Source of the DNA: Isoetes taiwanensis
Lineage: Eukaryota > Streptophyta > Lycopodiopsida > Isoetales > Isoetaceae
Direction: 5' to 3'
Length of the DNA stretch: 64,000 nt
Assembly: GCA_021234155.1 (NCBI GenBank)
Contig: JAJEKV010000002.1
Coordinates: 25,724,617 to 25,788,616, forward strand
Of the stretch, positions 21,301 to 55,309 are shown piece by piece (positions within the stretch are counted from its first letter, which is position 1; the number at the start of each line of letters is the position of its first letter). Both the position numbers and the translations under genes were made by a program. The notes under the pieces were generated by a model. It ran no database searches and had not been told where the DNA came from. It saw only the letters and a list, made by a program, of their open reading frames with translations.

Positions 21301-21506
21301 ATGCCGAAAGGGATTTTCCTTAAAGAAAGAACTAACCTGCTAATAATCCCAAATGTGCAGAGATAGCATCTCGATATTAGTATGAACAACAAAGAAATCA
21401 GGTTCACAAAGAAAGAGTTTGAGGCGTAATAATATAGAAAAGATGTGCAAAGTGAAAATATGGAATCATCAATCTTTAAGAAAATGGCAATCACATGTAA
21501 TTCTTA
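21301..21506. other. Junction sequence between LINE D and the gypsy LTR
   Basis: No gene or recognised repeat was seen; AT-rich. It may contain the deleted part of the left LTR or an unrelated flank. Confidence 0.3.
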
Positions 21507-21685
21507 TGATATTCAAAGGTTGCTTATCTTGGCATATAATTTCTTTTGTTCTTGTTTTGTTCTTTCTGTTCTTATCCCTCTTGCTAAATCCCGCGTGACA
21601 CACTATACTAAGGATTTGTCTGTTTGATCCAAGGGTCCTCACAGAGGACTGTCTTGCAGACAATCTCGAATCCTGACCCTAGACA
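21507..21685 (+). repeat. Left LTR of gypsy element, 5' truncated
   Basis: It matches 38561-38735, starting TGATATTCAAAGGTTGCTTA. Only about 180 bp of an LTR of roughly 600 bp remains. The likely end is the TAGACA at 21680-21685. I see no clear primer-binding site right after it; a GCC-rich stretch (CGCCGCCGCC) follows. Confidence 0.75.
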
Positions 21686-25335: not shown

Positions 25336-26279
25336 TAGATTAACTTAAAATGTTTTGGAAGGAAGAAAGGAAGGAAGGATCGGTACTTTTATCGTCCCAC
25401 GGAGACCAATCTGGCCTATGGGACCCAATACAAAAACGCAAAGAAGCGGATTATCGCCCGGATTAAAAAACCCCCACCAAGGGTTTTCGAGGGAAAAACC
25501 GCGGGCGTAGAATCAGCGCCACAACCGCATATAATCATATAAAATGCGTAAACATCCCAATATATACAACATGCACCACCCCCGTAGTGCCTAGTCGTGA
25601 CGGACAACGAAGGGGCAAATGTGACCTCGCAGTCCGCACCTCCCCGGATGTATGACCCGTGGCCCTCAGACTTTGCGGTGTTCATCGGCAAATGCAAGGG
25701 AACGCCCGCGGCATTACTAAGGGGAGCGTCCGCCCGGATCCGGTGAACACCGGCAACTCACGGAAAGTGTGAGACTCATCCTCAATGGCACCCGCTTGGC
25801 AAAGACCGGCCGAGCTTTGTCTGGCGGGGGCTCCCCCAATCCACCCGCCCGCCTCGATCTTGAAGATGGTGGGCACTGTCTTGAATGGGAGGCAATGAGT
25901 CTGCGCTTTTTGAGCATTTGGGAACGAGGTAGAGCCGGGCCCCGGGCTAACACGGGTTGATGTGCCCCTTGTAATGGGCCATTTGACTGCTCTAGAGCAA
26001 TGGGGTCCCGAGCTTGCCAAGGAAACAAGCATCTAGGTACTCCGCAGTCGTTACATCACGATGACATTTGCGCCCGGTATGCGATCGTGCTCCCCACTTG
26101 ACGTTCCATCTGGCGAACCAGCGATCTCTTACCCCTCCAACAGGCCCTAAGCGGCTGCGGACTCATGGCCCGCGGTAAGCCGGTCTTGCGGGGCCGAGCA
26201 TCACCCATAGTAACCACTTTCTGAAAATAGACGATGTGTCTATCAAGGCTGCCCGTGAAGCGCAAAGAATCCGGTTCTG

Positions 26280-27664
26280 CGCAGAGAATCCGATAGGGGG
26301 GGACTCAAGGTTTCACCCAAGTGCGTGCCAAAAATGCCTTCACCTGCTCCAAGTCATTCCAGTCGCCAAAGAGACGGCCGCCCCAAACCTCGACCCCGTC
26401 TGCAAGGACCAGCTCGACCCGGTCAGATGTGATGTGGGATGGCCCCAATCATATAGCTACACTTTGGATCGCTTGTTTTGCATGGCATAAAGCGCTTTCC
26501 GGCTGGCATTGTCGCATGGCGGATAGACGCCCTCCAGGAGCGAGGAGGGAACTCCACCCTAGGTACTTGTAGGTGGGCGTGGCGCCCACAAAGGTCCCCG
26601 GATATGTGAGTCAGGGAGGCATGGGGTGGCGTGAAGAGGATATGAGAACCACCGTCTTGGCAGATTGACGCTGCGACGCCTGAAATGGCGACAAAATGTG
26701 TCTAGGGCATCCGTGTGAGACCGCGATAGCTTCGGGGTGTGGGCCAAAGCCAACATCGTCCCAAGATAGATGAGCCGGGCGGATGACCGTGCAAAAGCCG
26801 ATGCCATCCCCCATGCTCGCGAAGCCGGGCTCTAACCGACAATGTAGAGGCCAAAAAGTGTTGGCGAGAGGGGGCAACCCCCTTGACCCCCGAGATACTC
26901 ATCGTGAATGCTTGTCCCGCCGGCGATCCCACAAAAACAACTCTCATACAACCCACGATATGGCATTCTCGCATGTGCAAATGGAGCCCCGGGGCTGACG
27001 CAGCTTCAGCCTCCACGCCTTTTCCCGGGATCAGATCAAAAGCCTTTGGCGAAGTCCACAGCAGCAAGAATACAAGTCCAGTACGATGATTCCTACCGCT
27101 CTTCAATCGATTCCCCAGCCAGAAGATATGGTCAATCGCTGAGTGGCGGGTCGAAGCCTGCCTGCGGTGAGGGGGTTTCGCGACATCCACGCTTGCCTCA
27201 ACCGGGGTCAACTGCCGAGAATGCCGAAATGCTTGGCAAATACCGAATCGACCATGATCGTCCTAACTGGCCTGACAAAGGTGGGTCGCCCGCCCAGAAT
27301 GGGAACAACCGCTTGGGTCCATTGTCGGGAAACCCTCCGCAATGCTCGCTTGAACGGGGTAGTGAGGATCCGCAAGCAAACTGTGGCCCCCGCCCACTGG
27401 GAGTAACTCGGCAAGATATCATCGAGGTCGTGCCTTCCCATTAGCGCTAGCCGCTGCGTGCCCTCCTCAACATCCTGGGCCCACGAGAACCAATGGGGGC
27501 CATCCCCGGGGGGGTATGGGCGACGCGTCCCCCGGGGCGCGGTCATAGAGCTGCTTTGCAAAATAGCGTTCCCCAGCCCGCCCGTGTGATGTCCCCGTAG
27601 GTCGGGCGGGCTTCAAGCACTCGGCCCAAAGGGTTCGAGGATGAGTGTCCGTGGGGCGTAACAT
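26280..27664 (-). pseudogene. LINE D2 reverse transcriptase, heavily frameshifted
   Basis: Short matches to the LINE D protein are spread over all minus frames: RHSAIDHIF and SPKAFDLIPG (near 27,130 and 27,035), a GVKGVAPSRQHFLAS stretch in place of RQGCPLSPTLF (near 26,880), and DARPRKTGLPRAMSPQPL near 26,190. Nucleotide similarity to 19.8-21.2 kb is obvious by eye, but with many indels. The catalytic box is not intact. Confidence 0.65.
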
Positions 27665-34215: not shown

Positions 34216-35639
34216 TTAAGGATGTTAGCAAACACCCCCTAAAGCATTTTAATTGGGTAGATTGTTCTTGGTGTAGAAGATGAGCATTGAATAAATAGAA
34301 TAGAATATAAAAGATGTAGCTAAATATTCTCTCACAACTCAAGGAGGGCTTAGTAGCAAGAATGGCACATTTATGTTGAGAATTTTTATGTCTTGAAGTT
34401 ATGGGATTTTGGTCATAACATCTTCATGATCTCATTGCGGACTTGGATTTACCTGGTATGGCCAAGTATGTACTATTTTTTCTATGGTAAAGATTTTTAC
34501 TTTCGTCAAATTAAATTAGATAATTATTCAATCTAAAATAATAAACCATCTACAAAACCTCTAAGAAGTGACATGCTATATTTTTAACGTCTACAATAAT
34601 AAACAATTGACCAAAAAAAGGGGGGAGGAGGGACCTTTGGGGGGGGGAGGGATGGTTTGACAAAAACAAAAACGAAACCTACGTTATTGGTTTGCATGTT
34701 TACTGTTATCCTTGTATTGGGTCCCATTACACAGCTCGGGTATTGTGGATGATAACGATCAATTCATTCAATGAGAAAATAAAATCATCCCAAAAATAAT
34801 CCCATCTTTCGAAAACCATTACAATATGACATTTTACTTCTTAATACATACTTAGACATGGGATATTAAATTGATATTGAAAAATCAAAAACCATATTAT
34901 AAACCTTTGCTAGTTAATGTAAGAAGTGTGTATGCAAAACTGCCATATAATTCTAAGAAACCGTTGTTCTATGTTGATCTTGCAAAGATGCAAAACAAAT
35001 TACAAAAGACTAAGCAATGACAATTTAAGAATTACAAAAGAAGATTTTGTATTTCCACATGTGCTCATTTGCTTGATACTTGAATAAAGTTTGACATCTT
35101 TCAAAAAACAAAAATTACGAAAAACCATATCTAGTGGATTGGTGCAATTAATTATGCCAATTGTTTTCTATGATCCTTCTGAATAACCAGTATGGATAGC
35201 CACATCTTTTTAGGAGATACCTACGAATAATTACCATGATATTAGCTCGATATTGAAAACCATGCTATAAACCACAACCATTTTATAACATACATTGTGA
35301 TGATATAGCATGAATAACCACCATAGCATTTAAATTGGTATAAGAAACCATAATATGAACTACTTCAACCCCTTTAAGCAATGTGATAATAAAAAACCAA
35401 TATGAACACCCATTGCCATACTTAAAGTGGTGTTAAGAAACCATGCTACAAATCACTGTCAATTTAATAAACCATGCTATGTTAGAAACCAACATGAATG
35501 ACCACTGTTGATGCTAGAAACCATGTAATAAACTAATATTAGTTTTAATACATCATGCTATAACAAAATACCAGTATGAATAACCATGTACTAGCTATGA
35601 AAACTACCATGTTATGTAGTTTTTACTAAGATTGAATTT
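34216..35639. other. AT-rich right flank of the insertion, AACCAT repeats
   Basis: No gene was seen. From about 34,800 it is dense in AACCAT / AAACCATGCTAT-type words, the inverse of the words at 24.1-24.4 kb. Confidence 0.6.
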
Positions 35640-35699
35640 TTTAGCATAAAAGAGCGCATCTATAGTGGTTCTTCAGTGGTTTATTTTAGTGGTTAAACT

Positions 35700-37340
35700 T
35701 TTGGATGCCTTGTGTGATTATGAAATGCTGATTGGTCGATCTTTTCTCCGCCAAGCTAAAAGCATCCATTATTGGACCACTGATCAACTTGTTATTACTG
35801 ATGGATAATTAAATGTCACCAAGGATCTTGAAACTGGAAAACTCATTTCTGTTGAAAATGCTGAACCTTCGCTCTCTGGTAGTGACTCTGATGACCTCTA
35901 AAACACTTATCAAGTCCAAGCTCCGGAAGCAGGTTTGCCATTACCTGCTTATCGTGAATATGTCGATTCTTGAGGATATATGAGTCTAGACATAGACCAT
36001 GCCATTGCTGTCTTGCTTGCGTGCCTTGTAATCGGATTTAGCGTGTTGATATTCTTCCGGATATTGACTCCTCTCACAATACTATTGATGTTGCTGCTGT
36101 TATGATGCAACCTTTGCTTGAACAAAATCAGCCCTTATTTTTTTTCCACTCAGAGTGCTGAACCACCAGTTCCGCTCCAACCTCCTACTTATACTATCAC
36201 AGATACATATGTTATTCCACATATTCATAACTCCAGAAGTTGAAATCATTGACTTAGGAGACAACCAACCTATTCGGTTGGCTGCCAATCTTCCCAAAGC
36301 ATATAAAACCCGTGCACTTAGTCTTTTCAAAAAAATTCAAATATATTTTTGCGTGGAGCTATAAAGATTTACGAGGTATAAAAAGGAGCTGGGGGAACTC
36401 ACCATTCCTACTAAACCTGATGCGCCCCCCATCTAGTAATGACAGTACAGGCTCAACCCCAACTATCGTGACAGTGTCAAAGCCGAAATTGATAAATTCT
36501 TGGCTGCTAGACTTATTTATGAGGTCAAACATTCGGAGCGGATGAGCCCCATTGTTATTGCCCTTAAGCATAATGGGAAAATTCGTATTTGCATGGACTA
36601 CCGAAAACTCAATTTGGCCACTGAATGTGATCATTTTCCGCTACCCTTCATATACCAAGTTCTTGAAGAAGTAGCAGACCATGAAATGTACTCCTTCATG
36701 GATGGCTTTTCTGGCTACAATCAAAATTACGTTCGCTCTGAAAATCAGTTGAAAACAACTTTCATCATGTCGTGGGGTACCTTTGCCTACAAAGTGGCGC
36801 TTTTTGGTTTGTCCAACTCACCTTCCATTTTTCAGCGCATTATGTTTTCTGTTTTTTAGGATTACGTGAAAGATAATGCTTTTCTGCAAGTTTTTCAAGA
36901 TGACTTTTCTACTTACAACACTATGGATGATCATCTCACCAAACTTGAGCTCGTTTTTAAAAAACGTGATGAATTGGGCATCAGTTTGAATCTCGAGAAG
37001 TGTATTTATGCGTCATTTCTGGTGTTCTTCTAGGCCACATCGTCAGCAAAGAGGGCATTACCACGGATCCTGCCAAGATCGGTTGTATTCTCAAGGCTCA
37101 GGCACCTACCAATATTAAGGAGACACACTCCTTTCTTGGGAAAGTCAATTATTATGCTATCTTCATTCCTGGTTTAGCTGCTATTGCTGATCCCATCTAC
37201 AAACTCACGGGTGATGAATCCACTTGAGCTTGGAATCCGAAGGCAGATGAGGCCTTCCAGAATCGAAAGTTTTGCTTACACAAGCCCCTGTTCTTGTTCC
37301 ACCTCAATGGAACAAACTCTTTCACGTCCATGTGGATGTT
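35700..37340 (+). pseudogene. Gypsy protease end, RT and RNase H start
   Basis: After the insertion, protease-like sequence resumes (LDALCDYEMLIGRSFLR). RT follows: LIYEVKHSERMSPIVIALKH, ICMDYRKLN, FMDGFSGYNQ (the family has D-x-x-SGYHQI), then a catalytic box FQDDF at about 36,897 in place of Y-x-DD. TTDPAKIGCILKAQAPTNIK with FLGKVNYY near 37,140 is the Ty3/gypsy connection domain. RNase H begins near 37,250 and is disrupted. Several stops and frame changes are present. Confidence 0.85.
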
Positions 37341-37379
37341 TCAGCCTTTCCTATTGGTGCAGTTTTCGTGAGTTTAACA

Positions 37380-37560
37380 GGTTTCGCTCACGCCAAAAAA
37401 AAAAAAAAAAAAAACTTTTTTTTTTATTTTTATTTTCGCGTAAGCGAGATGAAAATAGTTTCGCGTAAGCGAAATAGCTATTTCGCTTTTTTTTTTCCCT
37501 TTTAAATTTTTGCGTAAGCGAAACCTTTGTTTTGCTTACGCGAAAAAATGCGAATTCATT
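37380..37560. repeat. Palindromic GCGTAAGCGAAA repeat insert
   Basis: GCGTAAGCGA(AA) occurs at about 37438, 37462 and 37512, and its inverse (TTTCGCTCACGC, TTTTGCTTACGC) at about 37383 and 37532, separated by A and T runs. The block interrupts RNase H coding sequence and can fold into hairpins, so it is probably a small foldback insertion. Confidence 0.6.
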
Positions 37561-38138
37561 TGGATATCCTGTTGCATTCTTACTTACCTCTGATTGGCAT
37601 TCCCCCTTTTGGACCAAGGCTTTGGCTGGTCATCTGATTGGATCCCAGCACATATATCTACAGATCTTTGTTGGCATCCATGCTTCGTGCGTAATGTCTG
37701 GCAAGACGGGGAAACATTGGATCATAACGGAAATTGGATCTGTATCCCCAATGAATGCGGTCGGAAAACAACTGCCAATGCGGTTTGGGGACTTAATTTT
37801 TGGAAAGAGCTGCCACTTCCCCACTATTGCAATCCCAATGCTAGTGTCAGTGCTTTTGGCCTCCAGACATATCTGCTGATTGAATGACAGTTTGTTCCAG
37901 CGGAGATTCACCATGCCTTTGAAGATATGGCACAGTTTGGCTTTCTGTTGGACACGTCACCGTCTATTGGATTAAACACTACGGATGCCTTGAAAGACCG
38001 ACAGGATCTCACCCAGAAGTATCACTCTGAGGCTCGACCTCATAGTCATCAGGATGATTTCAATCAAATGACAGGTTTTCCACCTCCTGAAACAGTGCCT
38101 GCTTTTCTCCCCTCCGAGTGTTCTTTGGTGGGGGAGAG
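37561..38138 (+). pseudogene. Unrecognised gypsy 3' coding segment
   Basis: The plus-strand frame 37594-37887, continued at 37927-38138 onwards, encodes a Cys/Trp-rich stretch (GNWICIPNECGRKTT, LNFWKELPLPHYCNP). I see no integrase HHCC or DDE signature, which should follow RNase H in Ty3/gypsy. It may be a captured or extra 3' ORF, or integrase may simply be deleted. It ends just before the polypurine tract. Confidence 0.4.
38129..38138 (+). other. Polypurine tract before the right LTR
   Basis: TGGGGGAGAG-type purine run immediately upstream of TGTCAGTCC, the start of the right LTR. It would prime plus-strand DNA synthesis in an active element. Confidence 0.65.
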
Positions 38139-38741
38139 TGTCAGTCCTGTGCGACCAGGCATTGGACTATTCCTGAGCACAATACAGCCTTCAAACAAGA
38201 GCCCAAAGGCAATGGTTAAAGTCAAGAAGGAGCGTCAGGTAGCAAATCCACGCCCATGCAGAGACCCACGACCACGCAGAAGCCCACGCCCCCATCAAAG
38301 AAGAGGACAAGGCAAGACAAGTAAGCACCTCAGGGGAGTGCGGCCTTAACTTAGCAGGATTCACGGCACTAATGACGGTACTAAAAAGATTCCCTCAAAT
38401 CAAGCATATAATCCAAGAGTTGGTAATCGAGATCACAAAGGCTCTGCCATATGTCTATTTTGGGCCTGAGGCTGTTGTACTATACATATCAGTAGAGCTA
38501 GACCTTAAGTTTTAGATGAGACTTAGTATCATCTTGTTTTAGTTTCCTTGTCTCAACGTCTGATATTCAAAGGTTGCTTATCTTGGCATATAATTTCTTT
38601 TGTTCTTGTTTTGTTCTTTCTGTTCTTATCCCTCTTACTAAATCCGGGTGACGCACTATATTCAGGATTTGCCTGCTTGATCCAAGGGTCCTCACAGAGG
38701 GCTGTCTTGCAGACAATCCCGAACCTAGACCCTAAATAACA
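38139..38741 (+). repeat. Right LTR of the gypsy element
   Basis: It starts TGTCAGTCCTGTGCGACCAG after the polypurine tract and ends near ACCCTAAATAACA. The last 175 bp match 21507-21685. The first two thirds have no counterpart on the left because that LTR is truncated. Confidence 0.72.
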
Positions 38742-40926
38742 ACCATAAATATTGCTAAGGTACCCATAATTTCTTTGAAAGAAATGGACAAATGAGCTTT
38801 GGCGATGCCCTTGAAACAAACCAAAATGTACTTAAGATTTCTTAAAAGTGCACAAGGTTTGACAACCTATCAAATTCAAACAATATGCTCTATCCAAGAA
38901 GAATCATCTCAAAGTAGCATTGTAAGTAGAATTAAGTAAAGCAGAGTTGCATAAAAAGGATTAAAATAGCAATTACAAGGTTGAAGGCCCAAAACTCTAT
39001 GATTAGAAAACAATAGACAGACCTAGATATAGCTGTAAGTGCGACTTTAGAAGACCTATTCTAAACTTCTCTCTCAACATTAAAGCTCAAAGTGCACAAT
39101 AACTATAAATGTACATAACCAATAAGCAAACACGTCAAGCATTTTAAAAATAAATAACACAATTAGACAACCTCAGATGAGGTGGAGCCGCCAAGCAAGG
39201 CGCAAAAATGTTTGATAGACAGGGTAGAAAATATTGCTAAAATCTACATCTCCAAATAATTTGCCACTTTTGCAACAACTATAATATAGTCACAAGTCTA
39301 ATTGTTGTAATGTAGGAAGCAACAAATCAACATGATTCGGGCATCTATTAATTCCTTACTAAGTACATCCAAGTTCATCATAAAATCTTGTTCAATCTCG
39401 GCTCCAAAGGCACCCAACAAAAGCAAATAAGGAGAACACAATTTAGAGTAAGATGCAAAAATCAAATAGGAATGACTTCATGTAACTCTATAAGCATCCT
39501 TGAATAATATGAGGTGCCAACATGAGAAATAACAAAGAAAATGACTTTAAAATAACCGTGAGGTCTTGCCCATCATGATCCATTTGCCAAGTCTAATGCA
39601 ATGTAGTCAAGACTTTCCAAGGCTTTCCAATTGCGGCTAGATACAAAACTAGAGAAAGTGAACGAAGAACACAAAGAAAGGCAACTACACAAGCAAGATG
39701 TTTGAAATCCACTCACACGACAGTCTCAACCACTCCCAATATTCCAAGTGTTCACACATTAAAACATACTCAAAGGCACTCTAATGCAACATCGTGAGGG
39801 CAATTAACAAAATTCAAGAATGCCATATAAAACTATCAAGAGGGAAAACTGGAAAGGAAAGATTCTTATCTGAAAATGGCTAGTCTGCCACCGACATCTC
39901 CACTTTCCTTATGCGTAAAGCAGCGAAATGTAATTGCATGAAGAGTTACATTGCAATAGCATCCAGACATTGCAATAGCATCCCTTTATCTGAAATTCTG
40001 GCAACAAAATGTCTTATACTCTACCGATGCGTTGCTGTTAGAAAGAGGTCAATTGCTTTTCTCAATCTCAGATTTCTCTCAATATTTCCAATCAATTTCA
40101 TGCTGCAGCACTGAAATTATAGCATCTAATTTGCGAAACCTAACATCTATGTGAGCAGCAAGCCTCTGTCCAATATGGGGCATTTGTTTGAACTTGAACT
40201 TGATCTTTAAAACATATGCTATCCTCCAACACATAGGTCTCTCCCAAAGACCTGCTCCAGTATGACTGCAGCAGCCGCAACCTTGGAAACTGAAACTCTA
40301 GGCATGATGGTCAAGTAAAGAAAGAAAGGTAAGAAAATTGGCGAGGAAACTTCATATGGGCAAATAATGCCCAGTACCACTGTAACCACAGCAACCACTC
40401 TGTTCCAGCACTTATAAGGAAGCCCGACAAACTGTATCAGAAAGGACCAATGGGCAAACCTGATAAACAACAAAAGGGCAAACACCCAACTTGGGAAAAA
40501 CTACTGCACATCCGGAAGAATCGACCATGAACTGGCCAGCAAAACCTTGAAATGACCAAGCCTGATGGCAAACAGGTCCTCCACCAATGGCCAACAAGAA
40601 ACTCGAGATCCAAATAGAAAGGCTGTGGATATCTTTGCACCATGCCTCAAATAGAGGCAAAAGGGCTGTGGAAAATAGATGGGATTGAATGGAATTGCAA
40701 TAAAGCTCTTATCAGTGAATACGGTCGCTAACAGTGCTGAGAAATAGGAGAAACTAAAAGGTTCAAGCACTGGAAACAAGGTTGAATCAGCTGTGACCTG
40801 TCGTAATGGATCGGTTGAATCCTGCCGTAATGGAAAGATGGGATGGAAAAGCTGAACTGCAGACCCGAAGGAAAAATAGCCTGCTGTTTTGCAAAATGAT
40901 GAATCAGTGCAAATTTGTTGCCAGTT
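38742..40926. other. AT-rich non-coding region
   Basis: I support no gene, repeat family or RNA here. Minus-strand open frames at 40.2-40.9 kb have no recognisable features. Confidence 0.4.
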
Positions 40927-41048
40927 TATATGGGGGAAGGGTAGTTGGGACCCCTTTCCAGGTGGTCGGTGGGGTCCCGCGACCCGCGATAGCCGGGAAC
41001 TGGACACCGCCCCGGAAAAGGGGACCAACTCCCCTTCCCCCACAATAT
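40927..41048. repeat. Large hairpin (about 33-bp arms)
   Basis: TGGGGGAAGGGTAGTTGG at 40931 onwards is mirrored by CCAACTCCCCTTCCCCCA ending at about 41042. The arms (40927-40959 and 41014-41048) differ at a few bases only, around a GC-rich loop of about 55 bp. It sits about 130 bp upstream of the first exon of the recombinase gene, so it may be a MITE or a promoter/terminus structure. Confidence 0.7.
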
Positions 41049-42042
41049 ATTGACATAGGGGAGACTTTTTTTTCTTCCCCTTTTGCCTTCGTTTTTTTTT
41101 TCCTCTGCTCCTCTCTGCGCCATGATTCCGTCGAGGCGCCAAGGCAGACCTCCACGAGCTCCATCGAGCCAAGCATGAAAGATGAAGGCGCTTGCTCGAC
41201 GGAAGCATTTTGAAGGTAGTTTTACTTTTTTTGTTACTTGCATAGAGATTTTTGTGGTTGTAGGTGTTGTCCTTGCTGATTCTTCTTCAATAGTTGTATC
41301 AGAAGCTAGTATTACCAGAGTTGGAGCAGAAAAGACAAATGTCGAAGTTTTCTTTCGAAGATTCTATAAATTTTCATGATTTTTTTTATTTTTTAAGTGT
41401 TTTTTTCTGGCTTGCAGGTTTAGGGAAGGATGCATTGTTGATTCCGGCGACTAATGCTTCGGCGAAATGCTCTATGGTGTCTTTAGAGACTGGAAGTAAG
41501 ATTTAGGTCGAGATTTGGTATATTTATTTGCATGCACGTGTTTTATTTGTTTTTATTTTTGCAAATGGTTCTGGAAGTTCAAGGTTTCTTGCAAATGAAG
41601 GTTTTACTTCGGAAGAGCTCAGTTTTGGAGGTAATACTTCGTGCATGTTGGTTTAATTTAGTTCTAATGTCTAATATTTAGTTGTGCCAAATCAAGGGTT
41701 GTGGAATTTCCACATCAGACCCACGTATACGCCTGCGCACCCCATACGATGTTTCTACGTATCTATGTACATCTAATACTTTAGTGCATACCATTAAACA
41801 ATGAATGTGATACCATTGCATTTACAAGAGATACACAGTAAGATAACAGGCAATGAAAGTGAAGAGGTCACATATATTACATTGGCAGCTGTGCATATCT
41901 GAAAAACAACAGTCATGAAACGAGCTTCAAGAAGAAGCTTCCACAAAGGGCGTGCATGCCCAAAAGGTCTATACATAAGCAGAAGTGGAAAACAACAGAA
42001 AACATGAGCAAAAGCCTGACTAGAAGAGATGCCACAGCCATC

Positions 42043-43854
42043 TCACGCCTGCATGGTGCGGAAATACATTCTTCCAAAATGCTCCAATGTGTTATTGTGC
42101 TTTATGAGCAGGGCTCGCATCAAGTTCATGTATCCACGGAATACCCTGCGCTGTTTCAGAGACACTTTCAAATCCTCCATGTCCAAACAGTGGAGAGCTT
42201 CCTGAAGGCGTTGAACAGTGTTGCACATGGCGGTTTTACATTCCTTGATGCTCATCATGGTCTCTTTGGATACTAGATCCATGTCTACGTGAACGTGGAA
42301 ACATTCAGACCTGTTATCAGCTGCAACATAAGCATACTTCTCAACTTCCTCATCTGAATCTGTGTCTATGTTTACTAGAGGGCTGAAGATAGCGTCCTTA
42401 TCGCCTTCGTTCATAGCATTACCTACATCTCTAACTTCGCCTACACGAAAAGCAAAGAATTTGTACATGAGTAAAGGAAATAGAACTGTACTTACTGAGC
42501 AGAGAAGGAGCAATCTTAGAAATTGAGGGGAATGTAAGAAGGGCAGCCAGCAAAGGGTGTGTCCGTGGGGTGCTCAGGTGCCTCTTCTCTACATTCCTCA
42601 TCGGCAACATCCTCTTCAACATCCCCAAGCACGGTCTGAGCATCCCAAAATCTTCTCCTCCGCCTCCCAACACGCTCCACTGGCACTATTCCAGGAGGGA
42701 GCCCATAGACCACGCTTCTCACATCACCGTGAGAAGTATGCTTGGGATTCACAACCGCCACGCAGCCTCTACGCGCTGCTCTAAAGTGAAGGCCATGTTC
42801 GATGGGAGAACCCAGGCACCACTCAACACAAACTTTTCAGTCCTAAGCATGCTACACACGGTTTGAATCAGAGATGCAGTCAACTGCCGCTTTCCATGAT
42901 ATAATTGGAAATGCCTAGCTTTCTTGAAGAGGTTTCTATTGTCAAGGGTGACACAATTTTTGATGTCACCAGCCCCATAAAGTGCATATAAATCCTTACC
43001 ACGTTCGATCTGGTCAGCAGTTACAGACTTCATATGATGCCTATGATGCATCTTGCCCATGTCCTTGAGGCAATATCCCAACATCCCCTCATAACAGTGC
43101 AACTGGGTATCCTTCAGCGCTTTACAAAGAATAACAGCACCAGCTGGCTTGTGGGTATCCCAGCCCAGATACTTCTTCAACCGTGCATTCACTGCTATGG
43201 GGCGTGTCAAACCAATTCGAAATACACACTGGACATGAAGGTGATCCAAGTCGGATCCCTTCTCTAAGCTCACCATTCCACTGAGACACTCTGTGTCTAA
43301 GAACTTGCAGACAGAATTGTATACAGCATCCCATACATCCACTCCACCTATGCTGACAGTCACACTAACGTGCAAGGAAGATGGCTGATCTTTCTCTCCA
43401 ATAGATGCTTTTGGAGGCTTCGGACAACTTTCTTCCTTAATAACTTCTTCTTTCCAGGAAATACCTGCTTGCCAGGCCTCCTGTCTTCAAAACCAGGGAC
43501 CTTGCTAGTAAACTGAAAGACGGCAGGCAGCTCTGGCCTATCTCTAACTGAAAGAACGTTATCTTGAACTGGAACAGCATGAGTGTCAGCCAAATTTACA
43601 ACCACGAAATCATGTGTCTCCTCATCCCCATCGCCAGCAGCAATCTCTGGAAGCTCCTCAAAGCTAAACCTGTGCATATTGACATCTTCAGATAATTTGA
43701 AGCTCTCCCATAAACCACGGCATGCTCCACTGTGCTACTCTCAGGACCCCTCCCCTCAGCATCCAGACACCCCTTGGACACACCCCTGGCTAGCTTACGA
43801 AGAAACATCTCCAAAACTAAACAATACCTGCTGGAGAAGACGGAGTTGCCATAG
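42043..43854 (-). CDS. Rep-type HUH endonuclease gene (Replitron-like)
   Basis: A candidate start exon carries MHRFSFEELPEIAAGDGDEE (ATG at 43677) and runs to CAG at 43465. A phase-0 intron 43464-43385 (GTATTT...CAG, 80 nt) joins it to PSSLHVSVTVSIGG. The single exon 43384-42749 holds all three Rep motifs: HVSVTVS (motif 1-like), DHLHVQ (HUH histidines, codons 43243-43241 and 43237-43235) and YCLKD (Tyr codon 43075-43073, Lys three residues later). Such proteins nick single-stranded DNA and form a 5'-phosphotyrosine link. A stop at 42749 and a shift lead to an acidic/basic tail (42761-42516), then a probable last exon 42440-42043 after GTGTAG. No helicase is visible. Geminivirus Rep has an added SF3 helicase and Helitrons a Pif1-type one, so Replitron-type is the best fit. 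The N-terminus upstream of 43,735 is unsettled; open frames reach 44,084. Confidence 0.7.
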
Positions 43855-44159
43855 CTGCAAAACGACTGTGCAGCAAAGAACCCAGAAGGCCAGGCTTTAT
43901 GCAAAGTCGGGCAAAATTCCAGGGCCTTTTTTGGCATCGCATATGCGAGGGAGGCTCCAGGGCAGCGGGAGCAGCATCTGGCCGCCCGGCATGGCCGCCA
44001 TCTCCTCCAGCACATGGGGGCGAGAATCAGTCGCCCGCCATGCTCGGACCAGCGCTGCCACGAATTTGTAACATAAAACCATAGGCAGACGAAAAAAACC
44101 TTCACGAAACCCTAACCCCCATTTCTCTCCCAACCTTTGCCAAAACCTTACTAATAACC

Positions 44160-44325
44160 TTATAGGTTAGCTATTAGTTTATTATTAGGGTTACACGTTT
44201 AGTTATTAGTTTATTAGTAGGTTTTGTTAGTTTACTAGGTTACCAGTTTAGTAGGTAGGGTTTGTTAGTTTAGTAGGTTTAGTAGATTTAGTATGTTTAA
44301 TAGGTTTAGTAGATTGTTAACAGGT
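44160..44325. repeat. Degenerate TTTAGTAGG repeat block
   Basis: Words such as GTTTAGTAGG, TTTATTAGTAGG and TTTAGTAGATTTAGTATG recur about a dozen times between the HUH gene start and exon 5 of the recombinase gene. A single AGGGTTT-like (telomere-type) word is mixed in. Confidence 0.6.
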
Positions 44326-46282
44326 TATCATGCTTTGCAGATGCATCTGGAGTTGTTGATGACCCATCTTTTAGTCTCGGTATCCCATTTGAGGAGTCCT
44401 TGAAGGATGGAAGTCCAGATTTGACATCTGAGCAGCTTGTTGGTAGGAACAGCTTGAGTACAGATGTTGGTGGAAATAATATTGAAATAGGGTCGACTTT
44501 TAGTGTGATAACAGAAGAAATAACAATGGACAGAAGTAATAGTATGGATATAAGTGTGATTGTGACTGATCGACGTCGCGGAAAGAAGCCATTGAAGACT
44601 GGGGGGTTTGTTTCTGGATCTTGAACTTGTTAGCAGGGTGAGTAATGCTTTTGAGAATCCTTTGGAAACAAAGGATGAATGGGTGCGGGGAAGATTTGAT
44701 GCATGAAGGATGCATGTTGGAAAACCAATTGATGTTAAGATTGAAGACTTGGAATTGAATAATCTTGCTGACAATTTAGAGCAGTTTATGCTATGTGTGC
44801 ATCAAATCGATGGCAAGCCATATCTACCAGACTCGTAAGTGTATTTATAGTATTTATTTTCCTTTATTTATTTGTGTATTTTTATTTATTCTAACACATT
44901 TTCTGTTGTGCAAGTTGCAGAATTTATTCCATGGTTTTAACAGAATATTACGCCCGGCTTAGGATGCTAGGGTTATGAGTACGCGTATAGAAGAGAAAGT
45001 GATTGACATCTATAAGGATGTCAAATTTATGAAGGCACGGAATGCTTTGGAAGTTGCAATGGAAGATTCTGTCACAGGTGGCTTCACTCGAAGAGGAAGA
45101 AGTCAGACATATTGAATAGGGAAGACCAGTCGAGGATCCTGCTGCATCCTGTGCATCAGGTTACCACCAACTTGGGGCTCCAGAAGAGGTTCGCCTTTTA
45201 TTGTATGTCACGTTTCTTGATTCGTGGGGGCAAGGAGTTGTGTAAGGTCAGGGACTTTCAGTTTTTTGTTGGGAGGGATTTTGTGAATGAATACTTGGAG
45301 TATTGTGAGACCAGCAGCAAGAATTGGCATGGCGGCATCAACAAGTGCAACCTGAAGGTTTCAGGGAGCCTGTTAGATGTTATGAAGGTGACGTGATAGA
45401 TTGTTGGAGGCAGTTGGAGTTCCATCTTCTGAAGTACGAGGTCAACGATAAGTTTGGTAGTAGATTTGTGTTTTTGCACTCAATTAATCGCCCTAGAAAA
45501 GATACCTGGTATAATACAAATCATGTGTCATGGAAAACCATGGATGAAAGACATGGTTGAAATCTGGGGGATCGATGTTAACTTTACCAACAAGATTTGC
45601 AGGAGTACTGCAATTACACAGATGGCAGTATCAGGTGTGCCCATTGAAGTCGGTATGAGGATCACAAGAGTGCTAAAGCATATCAGCGTTATGATCACAG
45701 TGGAGTTGTCGCAAAAGCTTATGCTATGGACGTGCTGAATAGTGGTAAGACGTATGGCGAGTCTTTTCATAATAATATTAAAAATTTGAATGTTAGATTA
45801 TCTGGGAATTCGGAGAAAGCAGCTCGTTTGTGTTCCTCATTTGTAAATCAGCCTCTGCGTGATATCTCCAACAACTTGAACGTGTCAACTTCTGCGCAGG
45901 CTGTTAGTACAGGTTTTGGTAGTCTCGTGCCAGTTGAAATAGACGATGCGGATATGGTGTTAAAAGAAAAACCTGCTTTGAAGAAATATTTTCATGACCC
46001 TATAGAAAGTGCTGCTGCATCTGAAAGCGTTACAATTTCAGGTAATAAAATCGAGAGCATTGTCACTCATGTTGGAACTTTAGATGAAGCTGGCTCTGTT
46101 ATAAAATCATTATAAGTAAAGTTGTTGAATTTGCTAGTTCGCTTATAATTTTTTTATTTTAATTGTTTCTTATGATTTGCAGGAAGTGATAGATCTTATG
46201 GTTCTGGAATCTGGAAAGTGGTGTTGAATCCACCTTTGATTGTGATGTAGTTAAAACTTTAACTCACTGAAAAACTTCTGGG

Positions 46283-46310
46283 TTGCCCCTAGGGGGCAAA
46301 CCCTTGTTTA
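46283..46310. repeat. Conserved 24-nt hairpin, copy 1
   Basis: GGGTTGCCCCTAGGGGGCAA plus ACCC forms a near-perfect hairpin just after the recombinase gene. Its inverse form with the same flanks (AGGG.TTGCCC...AGGGGCAACCCA) is at about 59266-59292. Confidence 0.65.
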
Positions 46311-46499
46311 TGTGGGCTTTTGGCATATCCTAGATATATCCTAGAATATCCCTAGGATATGCTGGTGACTGCTAAAAACCTGACGTTGGAGGTAAACTGG
46401 CGGTGTGGAAACTGGATAACCGGCACTGCCATAGCTAGATAGCTAGATGCAGTACCTGCCTTCTGAATTTTGGTGTTCCCTGTTAACGGGGAGGGCAGA

Positions 46500-48105
46500 C
46501 GGAAGCTCGGATTTGATGAATATGGCAGCACAACAGGTGTACTTGAACGCATGTCTCATAAACTCGTTGAATATTTTGAGGTAGGACATAGAGATTTGAA
46601 TCATTAACTCTTCTTACTTTAAACAGAGCAAGCAGCTCACCTAAGCTACGTTGTTTTAAATCAGGCAATTCCTGGAGTTCCTAAAATTACAGATGGATAT
46701 AATCCGGCAACATGCATGTTGGAAGTCAATTCAACTTCAGCCGAACAGAAGATGCAAGTAGACTTTGCAGAAATCTACTCAAATTCTGAACTATACCAGT
46801 AAGTGGACCTTTTTTCGTAGGGACAATTGGTGATCTTAGATGAACGTATTGTAACAGCTTGCCTGCGTAATCTCATTCCAGACGCAACAAAGCACTTGCC
46901 AAGGAACTTTCTGTTCTCGCTCGGGGAAAAAATTTTTACATTTTGATACGCAATATTCTCTATCAACCCGGGGCGGTTTAAATGTTTGCCTATGGAAGCA
47001 CTATTGGACATATTGGTGCAGCCCATATTACAACTTGATCGAGTGTTCTTCACCCTAGTAGCTGCATTTATTTTCGGTACAATATTTTGGAGAATAGGAC
47101 GTAAGTGGTAAGTTGGTTTTCACTTTCCGAAATGCATTGAGGTGTCATATCCGATGTAAACTTGTATGTTTTTATAGGCAAAACCAACAAAACCTGGCAA
47201 CAATATTAGGAGCTATGTATGCTTGCTGTAATATTTCTTGGAATATCAAACTCGCCACAAATCCAACCAGTCGTGGACACCGAAAGCACGTTTTCTATCG
47301 AGAACGAGCAGGTGGGATGTATTACGCGTGACTTTGCCTTATGCCATAGCGCTTGGTAAGGGATATAACGCATACCATTAAGTAGAAGAATGTGAGATAC
47401 TTGAATCATTTTCTTAATAATAAGACATGATTTTACTGTGGGTTATCATCGGTCTGGTACATTTTCTTTCGATCATCTTGTATGCTTTCCTTACATATGC
47501 AATGATCAACTTTGAGTGGACGATGAAGAAGTTCTTCCGGTATCTGTACTATATGTTTGTTAGACTCCTCTACTTCACATATTATGGTATGATGGCGGTA
47601 TCCATCACACCAAATCACGAGGTTCTTTGCCGTAATGGCATCTTCTTTCTATTCGTTATTCAATCGTTTGCGGGTTTTTATGACTCCCCCGCGGTGAGTT
47701 GGCGTAAAAACAGATTTCCCATTTGCAACATGATTTTTGGTTTCTAACATTTCCTTCGAATCGCGAGAAAATTTCCGGATGGTGGATTTGGTATTATTGG
47801 ATCTGCCCTGTAGCATGGACAGTATATGGGCTTATTGCCTCTCAATATAGTGACATCAATGTGGAAATGGACAGTGGTGTGACTGTTTCAAAGTACCTAA
47901 AAGACACGTATGGATTCGAACATAATTTCATTGGAATAGTTCTTGTTGTCTTTGCTAGGTTTTCGCGCTTTTCTTTGCACGCATGTTTGCTATTTGCATC
48001 AAGATGCTTAACTTTCAACGAAGATAAGCCGCCATATTCATTGTCCACTAGACAATGGGACATGCATTATAGATGTGAAAATGTAGAAGCTATTCTTTTC
48101 TTCTT
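46500..48105 (+). pseudogene. PDR-type ABCG transporter, 3' half, decayed
   Basis: The order of fragments follows full-size ABCG/PDR transporters after the second nucleotide-binding domain. These are SHKLVEYFE, an intron (GTAGGACATAG...AAATCAG), [20 protein letters not shown] (family: ATWMLEV), [25 protein letters not shown] after CATTCCAG, a transmembrane start CLWKHYWTYW shifting into FFTLVAAFIFGTIFWRIG, ERAGGMYY, AMINFEWTMKKFF, YGMMAVSITPN and WWIWYYWICPVAWTVYGLIA. The Trp-to-Cys change, frame changes and a degenerate segment at 47,640-47,720 mark a pseudogene. The N-terminal half is absent. Active members export terpenoids, lipids or drugs across the plasma membrane. Confidence 0.85.
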
Positions 48106-48174
48106 TGCCATAAAGGCAATGTGTAATAAAATATTATTCAGTTGGTATATGTGAGAATAAGGATTACGGGCGTG

Positions 48175-49400
48175 CAGAGAAAAGGCAACATGAGGAGGCT
48201 ACACATGCGCTGTGGTAAATTGCTCATTCTTTAATCTTTTTGAAAATGATTTTTATTGTATGATCATCTTGGTGGAGTTTGTGGCACGAGCTTAAAGTTG
48301 CCATGCCAACTTAAGCTCCAAAGCCAAATTGTTTCGGATATGCTTACCTTGAATTGACCACAACAAAATATTTTCTGGATTGTTCCAGAAGCACATGGCT
48401 GATGAAAGCCAAAGATGGTAAGCTTTTGTGTTACAAATGAAAGAGAAAACTTGTAAGCAGTCCTTAATCGGTGTTAAGCCAGTGAAAACTTTATGAAAAA
48501 TAGAAACAAGCTTTTTACCCAAGTTTTACAATCTGTATTCTCTATAGGATGCATGTGTAATAACCATACTTGAAAAAGGTTTGTCGAAACAAGTACATTT
48601 TAGCATTTTGTTTAAGAAAACCCAGAATTCAAGGTTATATACTTATTCGAATGTGCTTATATTTGGCCCAATGTTTGACTGTTCAGATTTTCAAATCAGC
48701 ATTGTCTTTTTGGTCGTGTCTTATGTACACTTTTGTTGCAAAAATTGGATACATGAGCCTATAAATAAACCCACGAAATGCGTACACAAAATGCCACTCA
48801 TGTAATCGTTCCATGGCATTTTATGGAAAAGGCATATTTGTTAAGAATTCAAGTACATCCAATGGTATGCTGCAGCCAAAACTGAATGGGAGGAATAGCC
48901 CAAGATTAGTAGTACCTTAGTGTATTATATGGATACTCGAATCCTTTGTTTTTGACTTTGATGTAAATAAAAAACATACTGTCATTACACGTTCTTGTAT
49001 TATGTAATCATATAGATTTCGTGTTTATACATTTTACAGTTCCTATTCGTGGTTATTCGTGGCTATCTGATTCTATACTCACAGCTTTAATGCGGGCTAT
49101 GTGAAAACTGGTATTATAATCCATGCATTATCCATCATAAGTGATTGCTGGTTATAGACCAGCATAAGAAAGTGTATATGCTAGAATATCCCTCTGCACC
49201 ATCTTGCTTAGGATCTTATCATCGTTTATTCCTGTGGCAGGGGTTATTATCTCAACAATTCCTATTGGTATTGTCGCTCTTATGCAGTGAGCTTAAATCA
49301 TTTAACGTTTCTATTATTTATACTATCCATTTCACCCTCTGGCCATGGAGGGCAACCCTCCGTGCGCAGCACCTTGTTACTTCAGTGCTCACTGTATTTT
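48175..49400. other. AT-rich non-coding region
   Basis: I support no gene. It may contain the 3' flank of the ABCG relic. Confidence 0.4.
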
Positions 49401-49404
49401 TACT

Positions 49405-49971
49405 TCAGTGCCTTTTTAGTATTGAAAACCTGAATGTTATACTGGTGAAAACTTGTGTATTAACTTTGAGTAATTTGTATTCTCTCTTTCTCTCTGCATT
49501 CAATTTCTTGTAAATTGCAGAGGAAACTGGATCTTCACACGATATTTCTTGTGTTGCATTGACATCCAACAAATCTGGAACACTGTATTGGAATTCATCA
49601 GGCCGAAAATCCAATGCTAAACGTGTGATTGGCTCCAGGCCGGTATCAGGGAGCGCCATGAAATTCCTGAGAGAGGGAGAATAAGTGAATTGGAGGGAGA
49701 ATTTGCGCGGGCCATGAGATCGAAGTAGTTCTGGGCTCGATCGAATTTGCAACGTATTACCACTCGTGCGAAAATCCAGCCAAAATCCCACACTCATTTT
49801 CCTAACGGTTCGTTGGTGAGGTGGACGTGCGAGTACATGAAGGGCGTCATAAAAATGACGAGCAATTACGCCCACCAGCACCCAAATTAAGCAAAAGCAG
49901 CGGTGCTTTAAGCGGGCTAAAACCCTGCTATAAGCATGCGCCGGACGCATGCTTTTGATACCTATCAGCAT
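49405..49971 (-). CDS. Unrecognised ORF, 188 codons, ATG start
   Basis: The frame is open from ATG 49971. Internal ATGs at 49797 (MSVGFWLDFRTSG) and about 49,659 (MALPDTGLEPITRLALDF) could also start it. I do not recognise a domain. On the opposite strand a good acceptor (TTGTAAATTGCAG, ending about 49520) is followed by an open 55-codon frame ending at 49684, so the coding strand is uncertain. Upstream flank at 49,970-50,110 contains the ATGGTT/AACCAT words found in the 11.7-kb insertion. Confidence 0.3.
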   Translation of the reverse strand: MLIGIKSMRPAHAYSRVLARLKHRCFCLIWVLVGVIARHFYDALHVLARPPHQRTVRKMSVGFWLDFRTSGNTLQIRSSPELLRSHGPRKFSLQFTYSPSLRNFMALPDTGLEPITRLALDFRPDEFQYSVPDLLDVNATQEISCEDPVSSAIYKKLNAERKREYKLLKVNTQVFTSITFRFSILKRH

Positions 49972-50111
49972 GCTTTTACCCTTATAACATGGTTATTAAT
50001 GCTAGTTACTATTAATATAATGGTTTGCTAAAGCTGGCTATAGTTTATGAGACCATTTCAATACTTGTATATGATAGTGGTCTATAAAAACTAGCATCGG
50101 TTTATTAAGAC

Positions 50112-50980
50112 TAGGGATGGTTTGTAAAACCCCTGAATGAATAATGGCGTGATTTGAAGGTTAGTTCAGTTAGTTCAAGGACCATGAATAATAGTAATAT
50201 GTGTTTTTTTTTTTCATCTTATGGTCATATATGAGCATTAGTTATGCCATGGTGGACAAACATTGCCACTTTTTCAAAACCATTGCACCTTATACTGCAA
50301 GCTAATATTGATCCTCGCTTTGACATATCTAATGAGCATTCAAACAACTTTCTATGCTCTTCTCTTTCTTCTTAACATTGATTCTTGCTTTGACATATCT
50401 AATGGGCATCTGAACAACCTTCTATGCTCTTCTTTTTCTTCTTCTTCTTGGATGCCCGATAACAAATAATGTTGGACTTATCGCTCGTCACATATCTTAT
50501 ATAAACCATTTTGTATGTTAAGCCAAGGCAATGATAAACACTACCTCGATTAATTATTGAGAACTAAGACTACAAATTCGAGCGAAATATTAACCATCAT
50601 TCAATTAAATTGGGATTATGTCTATTCCAAAATCGTGCCGTATAATTTTATTGACCATTATATTGAATTAACCACACTTTTGCACTGAGTTCATTTTCGG
50701 GCTAGGAAGATGCATTTTATGTTGAAATGCAAAGGCATTCAAATATTCGATGCAAATGACCCATATTATGACAGAATGTTGGCAATATAAAAAGTAGGAA
50801 ATTGCTTATTAGTTCGTACCATCACGGACGACAACGAAATCTAAACATTGAAATTGTAGTGCTTTACGAATAAATAACAGCAAGTAAGTTGCTACAAAAC
50901 AGAGAATTTCGTGGTTTAAATCGCGCGTGGCGCGATTTTCTTGGCATTAATAACGCATTATAGTGGAACATAAACCTAAA
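50112..50980. other. AT-rich non-coding region
   Basis: No gene was seen. A near-duplication lies at 50300-50440: a CTTTGACATATCTAATG(A/G)GCAT segment with a CTATGCTCTTCT segment, both twice. Confidence 0.5.
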
Positions 50981-52348: not shown

Positions 52349-55309
52349 ATGACGACGGCAGCCAGGCCAACATGGGCGCCTGCCAAAGGAGGTCAAGAAC
52401 AAGGTGGAGTCCGCATCTTCGGCCCGTCGCAGAAGTATTCTTCTAGAGATTTGGCTGCACACACGACCCTTAAGACCAGGTATTTTCCTCCTGTTTCAAT
52501 TCTTATGTTCCAAAACAAGATCATTGTGTTGTTCCATGGCAATTGCTGTCAAAGAAGCAGAGCCTTTCCCTATGATTTTACTTTGTTTACAGCATATTTA
52601 GCGAAAGTGATTGCATGGACGCAATGTTATTTGCTATAAGACAATGCCGAGTGGGAACCTAACTCATTGCAAATCTCATCAGGACATCAAAGAAGATAGA
52701 AATGATAGTTATGTCCCTTCGTTAATATTTCAACTAGATAAGCTGTCTCGGCAAGCACAAGCTGGTTATTTACATAAAACGTAACTTCTTATCAGTTGAA
52801 GCAAGTCAAGAACATTTGATGTTGAGAATTTTATGGAACAGAGATGGATGGAAGGGTCTTTGTTCCTCATATCCCTTATTATTATAAAGATCAAGCATCA
52901 TAATTCGAGAGTACAGCTGTGTACCAAAAGAAATAAACCTAGGTCATTGAAATAGAGTTCTAAGAAATAAAGTAATGGTGTCTTTATTCCCTGTAATTGT
53001 AATTTATTAAGTCCGTGATTTCTGACTGACTGGTTACACTGTTTCAAGCAAGAAGATGGGTCCAGTTACCTAACAAGAGAGAATTTCCAATGATAGAAAT
53101 GGTAGGAGTAGTTTTTTAGCAACACATTGACGAGTAAAATTAAAACTAACAGGCTTAGAGAGGATAATTCCGTTTTTTAAAAGGCTTCTTTCACTTAAAA
53201 GAACAACGAGCATGGATGAAAAACCCTTCTTCCATGCAGATGAGGGATCTTAAGAGGTAGTAAAAACAACAGTTAAACGGATAGCTAATACTCACGAAAC
53301 CCCGAGTAATCAGTAAACAGGGCCGCTTATGAATAATTTGGCTGCCTGGGACCCAGGCAACTCAATGGTTATGGCATAATGTTGCAACTTTTATTTCAGT
53401 ATTGAAGGGGCCATCTAGTCAAGTCCCCACATTAGGACCTAGTATTGGCTTCTCCTCAACCATCATTTTGAGTCATCTTAAAAGGGGCTTTAGAAATAAT
53501 ATAATTTCCTACATAAGGGCAGAAGTGGTGTTAATTGTAGACACTCGATTACCAACTGTACTATGCTGCCCCAAGATTTGCTAAATAACAGGCTGAAGTC
53601 AGCTGATAGAGAAAGTAGTTACAAAATGTGGGCAAATTGGGAACACATCCATAGCTTAATCAGTTGCGATAAACTGCTCCCCTCTACAAAGATGAAAATA
53701 GTATCGTGGAACAGGTTTAGCATGGCCATTATATGTATTAAGATCAAGGGATGCTACAGCAGCTTTAAGAGGGTTTGTTACTTTGAGTTTGACTACTGCT
53801 TGGATATAAGAACCATAACCTTAACTTGCCTGGATGTGCAAAGCTTCTTTCCTGAGTTTCTCATAACACAGTTTGCTCTTATAAGGACAAATGCTGTATG
53901 GTAAATAATGCAAGCTTTTTCAAGGATAATAATGCAATCTCTTCGAACCCCTCAAGGTTTGTGCAGGAAATTTATGGAAAGGCCATTATATTTAATTTTA
54001 TATAACTCTCAAGTAACGTAACAGATGCAACGAGTTGGGCAAACTACTACATTAGCAAAGTTTGACAAAGTTAAAGCAGGAACTCGTCGTACAAGATAAA
54101 CCTAAATGCCAACATCCTAACTATGCTGAATGAGCATGTGCAGCATGCCTCCAATGACCTGCTGTGTTATTAATTTCCGTTCCTTGGCTGCCACATTATC
54201 ATCTAAGCATTACCTAAAATAATTTTGGGATTATCCCTTGAGCCATGATGATGGTTTCAGTGTAAGTGAGGTCTGTTAAGCACTGCAGTACTATGATATA
54301 GTGTGTAAACACAAGTTGCACAGATGCTAAGGATTGGCAGGGAATGTGCAGAAGCTAATGCTTCCATTCGCTTTCTTATTTGTATGCAGAAAGGATGGCC
54401 AAGGAACTACTGAAGAAATACGCAAAAGGAACCTCAGGGAAGAGCTGGAAGAGCGGGAGCACAAACACTTCTCGAACAAGGACAGGCCATATGGTAATAG
54501 CTCTGTTGTGGCACTTTTGTATTATGTTTTCTGATGGTCCTTTTCTCGTATCAGACGAGAGAGATCGAAGGAAAACCTCTGCATCAAGCGGACTATACTT
54601 AGAGGGTTCTGGTACGCCTTATTAAATACATAACAATGACGTTATTCTAAGTAGAGATTGGCTGGCCAAATAGATATGACATTTTAGTCTGGAAACGTGC
54701 AGCCAGTAGACGAGATATCGATGATAAGCCACCCCCAAAGAACATAGATGCTGACGATTCAGATGTGGATGTAAAAAGTGATCAGTCCAATGACAGGTTA
54801 TTATGGCACTTCATTTCCTATACAAGTTAAATTTCTAATTTAGAATACTACAATCTTTAGTGATGAAGAGGAAGATGATACGGCTGCACTGCTTGCAGAG
54901 CTTGAACGTATTAAAAAGGAAAGAGCCGAAGAAAAGCTGCGCAAGGTACATTGATTGTTCTTGTTGCTTTTCTCGCAAAAATCCAGCATACAAAATGCTA
55001 ACATGTTATCGTTACAGGAACGTCAAAGACAGGAAGATGAGTACAAAACAAAAGAGGCAGACTTAATAAGGGGCAACCCTTTACTAAATCCAACATCTTT
55101 TTCTATAAAACGAAGGTAGGTAGATACAGGAGAACTGATGGCGTGGTATGGTTAACAGCCTAAAAGTTCTTTGGTTTATTCACAGATGGGATGATGATGT
55201 TGTATTCAAGAACCAGGCACGTGGAGAACCTAAAGTTGTCAAACGTTTCATTAATGATACAATCAGAAGCGACTTTCATCGCAAGTTTTTGAACAAATAT
55301 ATGAAGTAA
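52349..55309 (+). CDS. CWC15: Spliceosome-associated protein CWC15 (Cwf15/Cwc15 family)
   Basis: Seven exons: 52349-52479, 54390-54493, 54555-54611, 54688-54796, 54861-54945, 55018-55115 and 55186-55309. All junctions are GT..AG and frames join exactly to 708 nt (235 residues plus stop). The start MTTAARPTWAPAKGG is the family N-terminus, followed by GPSQKYSSRDLAAHTTLK. NLREELEEREHKHF is the charged middle. DADDSDVDVKSD plus an EEEDD acidic stretch lead to the coiled-coil LLAELERIKKERAEEKLRKE, then IRGNPLLNPTSF and the C-terminus WDDDVVFKNQARGE...NDTIRSDFHRKFLNKYMK. Cwc15 is a small, largely unstructured protein bound to the Prp19/NTC-related complex and present in catalytic spliceosomes in the nucleus. 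Intron 1 is 1.9 kb, the others 61-76 nt. No lesion is seen, so it is an intact host gene. Confidence 0.97.
52480..54389 (+). other. Large first intron of CWC15
   Basis: It starts AG|GTATTT and ends TTGTATGCAG. I recognise no embedded gene or transposon. Short open frames around 53.4-53.9 kb have no recognisable features. Confidence 0.8.

Follow-up and report, generated by a model that had tools for sequence, protein, structure and literature searches.

A minus-strand open reading frame at positions 43486-42749 of the window (the whole 64,000-nucleotide stretch of DNA analyzed here) encodes, judging by its sequence, a Replitron-type HUH nuclease and neither a Helitron protein nor a geminivirus Rep. 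It is very probable that the frame belongs to a copy of a Replitron DNA transposon in the nuclear genome of a land plant, probably a seedless one. Replitrons were reportedly described by Craig in PNAS in 2023.

Identification of the HUH nuclease

The frame is uninterrupted for 245 codons and holds a complete HUH endonuclease domain. In a Pfam search it matched PF21859 (Replitron_HUH) with an E value of 1.1e-19 and 71.4 bits (cut-off, 28.5). The matched domain lies at 42986..43366 on the minus strand (protein residues 41-167) and covers profile positions 1-127 of 128. This was the sole Pfam match at E values up to 0.1 in the six frames of 40500-45500 (stops read as X). When the HUH piece alone was searched at E values up to 10, only a sub-threshold match to the PrlF antitoxin was added; in the Pfam search described first, this match had an E value of 0.059 (14 bits versus a cut-off of 32), and we discarded it as due to chance. 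The Replitron-type identity proposed in the earlier note was therefore borne out by a near-full-length match scoring more than twice the cut-off, with Helitron, geminivirus Rep and helicase families unmatched.

Within the frame, the catalytic motifs follow one another as LHVSVTVS, DHLHVQ and YCLKD, so the earlier claim of a motif-1-like strand, an HUH motif and a YxxK motif in one open frame was correct as to both presence and order. The His-Leu-His codons of the HUH motif occupy 43235..43243 (minus strand). The YxxK motif, a presumed catalytic tyrosine followed by Cys-Leu-Lys, occupies 43064..43075 (minus strand), with the tyrosine codon at 43075-43073 and the lysine codon at 43066-43064; the catalytic role is assigned by analogy with the HUH superfamily. 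The natural coding part of the frame probably starts between about 43465 and 43384.

Other resources added little to this assignment. A structure model, the kind of check proposed in the earlier note, was built from the single sequence with no alignment and was too poor for use (pLDDT of 37 and pTM of 0.24), and its secondary structure was given no weight. A PDB sequence search returned two matches only (E values of 1.9 and 2.4). The best PHROGs E values were 0.26 for the HUH piece, 0.22 for the N-terminal piece and 0.016 for the C-terminal piece (function unknown), and the best NCBIfam E value was 0.18; none of these were counted. We also searched a protein collection that includes nr and UniRef entries and in which candidates must share five-residue words with the query. 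None of 196 candidates scored as relatives of the HUH ORF, and none of 325 did when a 496-residue read-through was limited to residues 103-305 and a wider length range was allowed. The five-residue-word requirement may be the cause, and the collection does contain seedless-plant proteins, as a search with a neighboring LINE-like frame showed (see below). Pattern searches yielded 2 matching stretches in the viral_contigs set and 42 in the genome_contigs set, with none confirmed in either, as expected for a plant element.

Frame changes and gene model

Coding-like sequence flanks the HUH frame on both sides in other frames, with changes of frame near 43460-43400, 42830-42760 and 42590-42440. Upstream, MHRFSFEELPEI... 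precedes the HUH frame from 43677 in a different frame; this probable N-terminal coding part (43465..43677, minus strand, within ORF 43734-43360) reads from MHRFSFEELP and matched no significant Pfam family (best, DUF7386 with an E value of 0.11). A possible additional exon (MATPSSPA) lies further upstream at 43852-43828 (minus strand). Downstream, GCVAVVNPK... follows at about 42780-42593, which we consider a probable coding part in another frame (42593..42780, minus strand; no Pfam family). EVRDVGN... then continues until a stop ending at 42043, forming a C-terminal coding part (42043..42440, minus strand) without a known domain.

Two readings of the frame changes are possible: introns, or indels in a decayed or misassembled copy. 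A spliced reading with five exons (43852-43828, 43646-43465, 43384-42834, 42780-42593 and 42440-42043) gives 447 uninterrupted residues, and replacing the first exon with a start at 43677 gives a four-exon reading of 449 residues. At the three breaks counted, many GT-AG pairs are in phase (87 of 287, 56 of 160 and 36 of 168, irrespective of stops), so an open spliced reading is weak evidence.

The individual candidate introns fared differently. The 80-nt phase-0 intron that the earlier note had placed at 43464-43385 was not confirmed. Plant introns do not typically have the composition of this stretch (A, 39%; T, 23%; 3' end rich in purines), and the HUH frame runs through it without a stop. 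Judged by eye over just 27 codons, with no statistical test, base usage by codon position in that frame resembles coding sequence. The second proposed intron, of 55 nt at 42495-42441, is intron-like in composition (45% T); as a gene model it falls short, with a TAA coming first in the preceding coding-like frame. The alternative donor at 42592, which had been rated the weaker, gives the better candidate, a 152-nt phase-1 intron at 42441..42592 (minus strand) that contains the 55-nt stretch, has 34% T and restores the frame. Its 3' half is T-rich and its acceptor ordinary. The frame change at about 42830-42760 was absent from the earlier note; a 53-nt GT-AG stretch at 42833-42781 could explain it. 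On balance, we favor a mixed reading in which at least one frame change is an indel (the copy being decayed or misassembled) and at least the last, of 152 nt, is a true intron.

Comparison with known Replitrons

Replitrons are given in the consulted part of PMC10741241 as elements of 0.9 to 4 kb with direct terminal repeats of 5 to 11 bp and target duplications of 2 to 8 bp. The coding span found here, about 1.8 kb, fits that element size as stated there (PMC10741241). The HUH domain also resembles theirs in fitting the family profile almost end to end, the YxxK tyrosine is present, a helicase match nearby is absent, and the host is probably a seedless plant. The present copy differs in its interrupted reading frame, and our scan for direct terminal repeats with target duplications gave no signal above shuffles. 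For that scan, exact direct repeats of 5 to 11 bp beside duplications of 3 to 8 bp were sought with ends in 41200-42043 and 43700-44700. Among the 37 pairs recovered, the highest summed length was 10; the top score per shuffle, over 200 shuffles, had a median of 11 (95th percentile, 13). An inverted 22-nt match between 41621-41642 and 43797-43818 was dropped (E = 0.08). A tblastn search of the window with four pieces for a second copy returned, beyond the gene itself, only short matches with E values of 0.23 to 0.90, leaving a single copy in the window.

Alternative explanations

HUH and YxxK are short motifs and could turn up in a chance open frame. A Pfam match of the observed strength across almost the entire curated PF21859 profile speaks against this, as does the length of the frame. 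When 41800-44400 was shuffled 500 times by mononucleotide, the longest minus-strand frame free of stops had a median of 90 codons, a 95th percentile of 132 and a maximum of 166, so that the observed 245 codons exceeded every shuffle. The whole window contains 90 stretches of 100 or more codons without a stop; among them, only the HUH frame carried the pattern H-U-H-U, 30 to 90 residues, Y-x-x-K. We consider a chance origin refuted by the profile match and the shuffle test, its remaining probability being negligible.

Alternatively, the frame could be a geminivirus-like (CRESS-DNA) Rep gene that became integrated, or what is left of a Helitron after loss of its helicase. In CRESS-DNA viruses, Rep has a single-tyrosine HUH domain whose three motifs are ordered as here, and geminivirus Rep joins the catalytic domain to an SF3 helicase. 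Helitrons encode a Rep together with a Pif1-type helicase. The superfamily and the motif order (that of Rep being taken from general knowledge) are thus identical to those of our frame, and Helitrons share with it the character of eukaryotic transposons with an HUH nuclease, as the consulted part of PMC13231165 describes them. However, six-frame Pfam scans of 35500-50500, about 6.5 kb on each side, matched no helicase family and no Helitron or Rep family at E values up to 0.1. The flanks of this 15-kb region gave only an ABC2_membrane piece (45500-50500) and reverse-transcriptase and RNase H pieces (35500-40500), the latter presumably of Ty3/gypsy type. Neither the Pif1-type helicase of Helitrons nor the SF3 helicase of viral Rep has a counterpart here, in agreement with the earlier note; likeness to geminivirus Rep with a helicase elsewhere at the locus, which that note had named as counting against its reading, was looked for by Pfam and not found. 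Since the HUH piece matched nothing but PF21859 and the sub-threshold PrlF even at E values up to 10, and the Replitron model was matched across almost its whole length, a Rep or Helitron remnant is exceedingly improbable.

The frame could also be a domesticated, Replitron-derived host gene: intact, spliced, 447 or 449 residues long, present at one locus and serving in single-strand DNA processing. Uninterrupted five-exon and four-exon readings are available, and neither direct terminal repeats nor duplications stand out. Against this, the in-phase GT-AG pairs on which such readings draw are plentiful, one intron that they need is rich in purines, and the surroundings are full of transposon remnants. 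Domestication thus seems very unlikely, and we retain the reading as a transposon copy.

According to the consulted part of PMC10741241, Replitrons have already been reported from liverworts, mosses, lycophytes and ferns, their hosts being green algae and seedless plants other than hornworts. A copy in what is probably a fern is therefore expected on the basis of that account (PMC10741241). The broader possibility that either the host lies beyond the reported range, being a seed plant or hornwort, or the nuclease is domesticated and intron bearing is improbable. A host in either of those two groups would extend the range given in that part of PMC10741241. As it stands, the finding enlarges a young class of transposons by one plant copy and by itself changes little.

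Proposed mechanism

In the HUH superfamily, two histidines hold a metal ion, and a tyrosine cuts a strand, stays on its 5' end and then passes the strand on. By analogy, the encoded protein, a single-tyrosine HUH endonuclease without a helicase, would most likely nick one strand at the element end. The tyrosine at 43075-43073 would remain bound to the 5' phosphate, with the metal ion coordinated by the two histidines, and the strand would be handed to a target by replicative transposition of the copy-out, paste-in kind. Unwinding and synthesis would fall to host enzymes, since an element lacking a helicase of its own would need the host's replication or repair to release or copy the strand. 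Both this chemistry and the transposition route are inferred from the superfamily, and the present copy may be inactive.

Genomic surroundings

By its content, the window is plant nuclear DNA. The surroundings of the Replitron gene hold LINE-type and other reverse-transcriptase remnants, one of which bears indirectly on the host. A LINE-like reverse-transcriptase ORF at 20421-21503 (minus strand) had 254 matches in the protein collection. Among the best 120 of these, with identities of 30 to 55%, 35 name an organism and 85 do not. The named relatives in this set comprise 24 from Adiantum nelumboides, 8 from Riccia sorocarpa, 1 from Marchantia polymorpha, 1 from Klebsormidium nitens and 1 labeled Enterobacter cloacae complex, perhaps a contaminated record. 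Ferns or liverworts thus account for 33 of the 35 named matches listed, and seed plants for none. As an indirect witness of lineage, the LINE probably points to a seedless plant and above all to a fern.

The window also contains repeats. A segment at 19346-20948, which overlaps the LINE-like reverse transcriptase, is 65.6% identical to 25767-27345 over a 1,671-column alignment. The 2-kb bins around the two segments have about 42 to 47% and 46 to 58% G+C, respectively, which suggests a compositional difference between the related copies. A 175-bp dispersed repeat occurs at 21507-21681 and 38561-38734 (92.6% identical). Immediately upstream of the Replitron gene, at 44208-44312, is a minisatellite of 9-bp units like TTAGTAGGT.

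A tRNA scan of the window and an Rfam scan of it at gathering thresholds were both empty. Decayed open frames with frame breaks at 45000-46115 (plus strand) gave no significant Pfam match; in our reading, they resemble the C-terminal region of a Crypton-type tyrosine recombinase. Two ABC2_membrane pieces lie at 47433-47850 (plus strand), with ABC_tran unmatched in 35500-50500. They presumably derive from a plant PDR-like ABC transporter, either as a partial copy or as a gene with very long introns. At 52349-52483 (plus strand), we found the first exon of the spliceosome protein CWC15 (PF04889), whose best match was the Cwf15/Cwc15 chain of entry 8xi2 (E = 9.3e-12), which we take to be a green-alga spliceosome.
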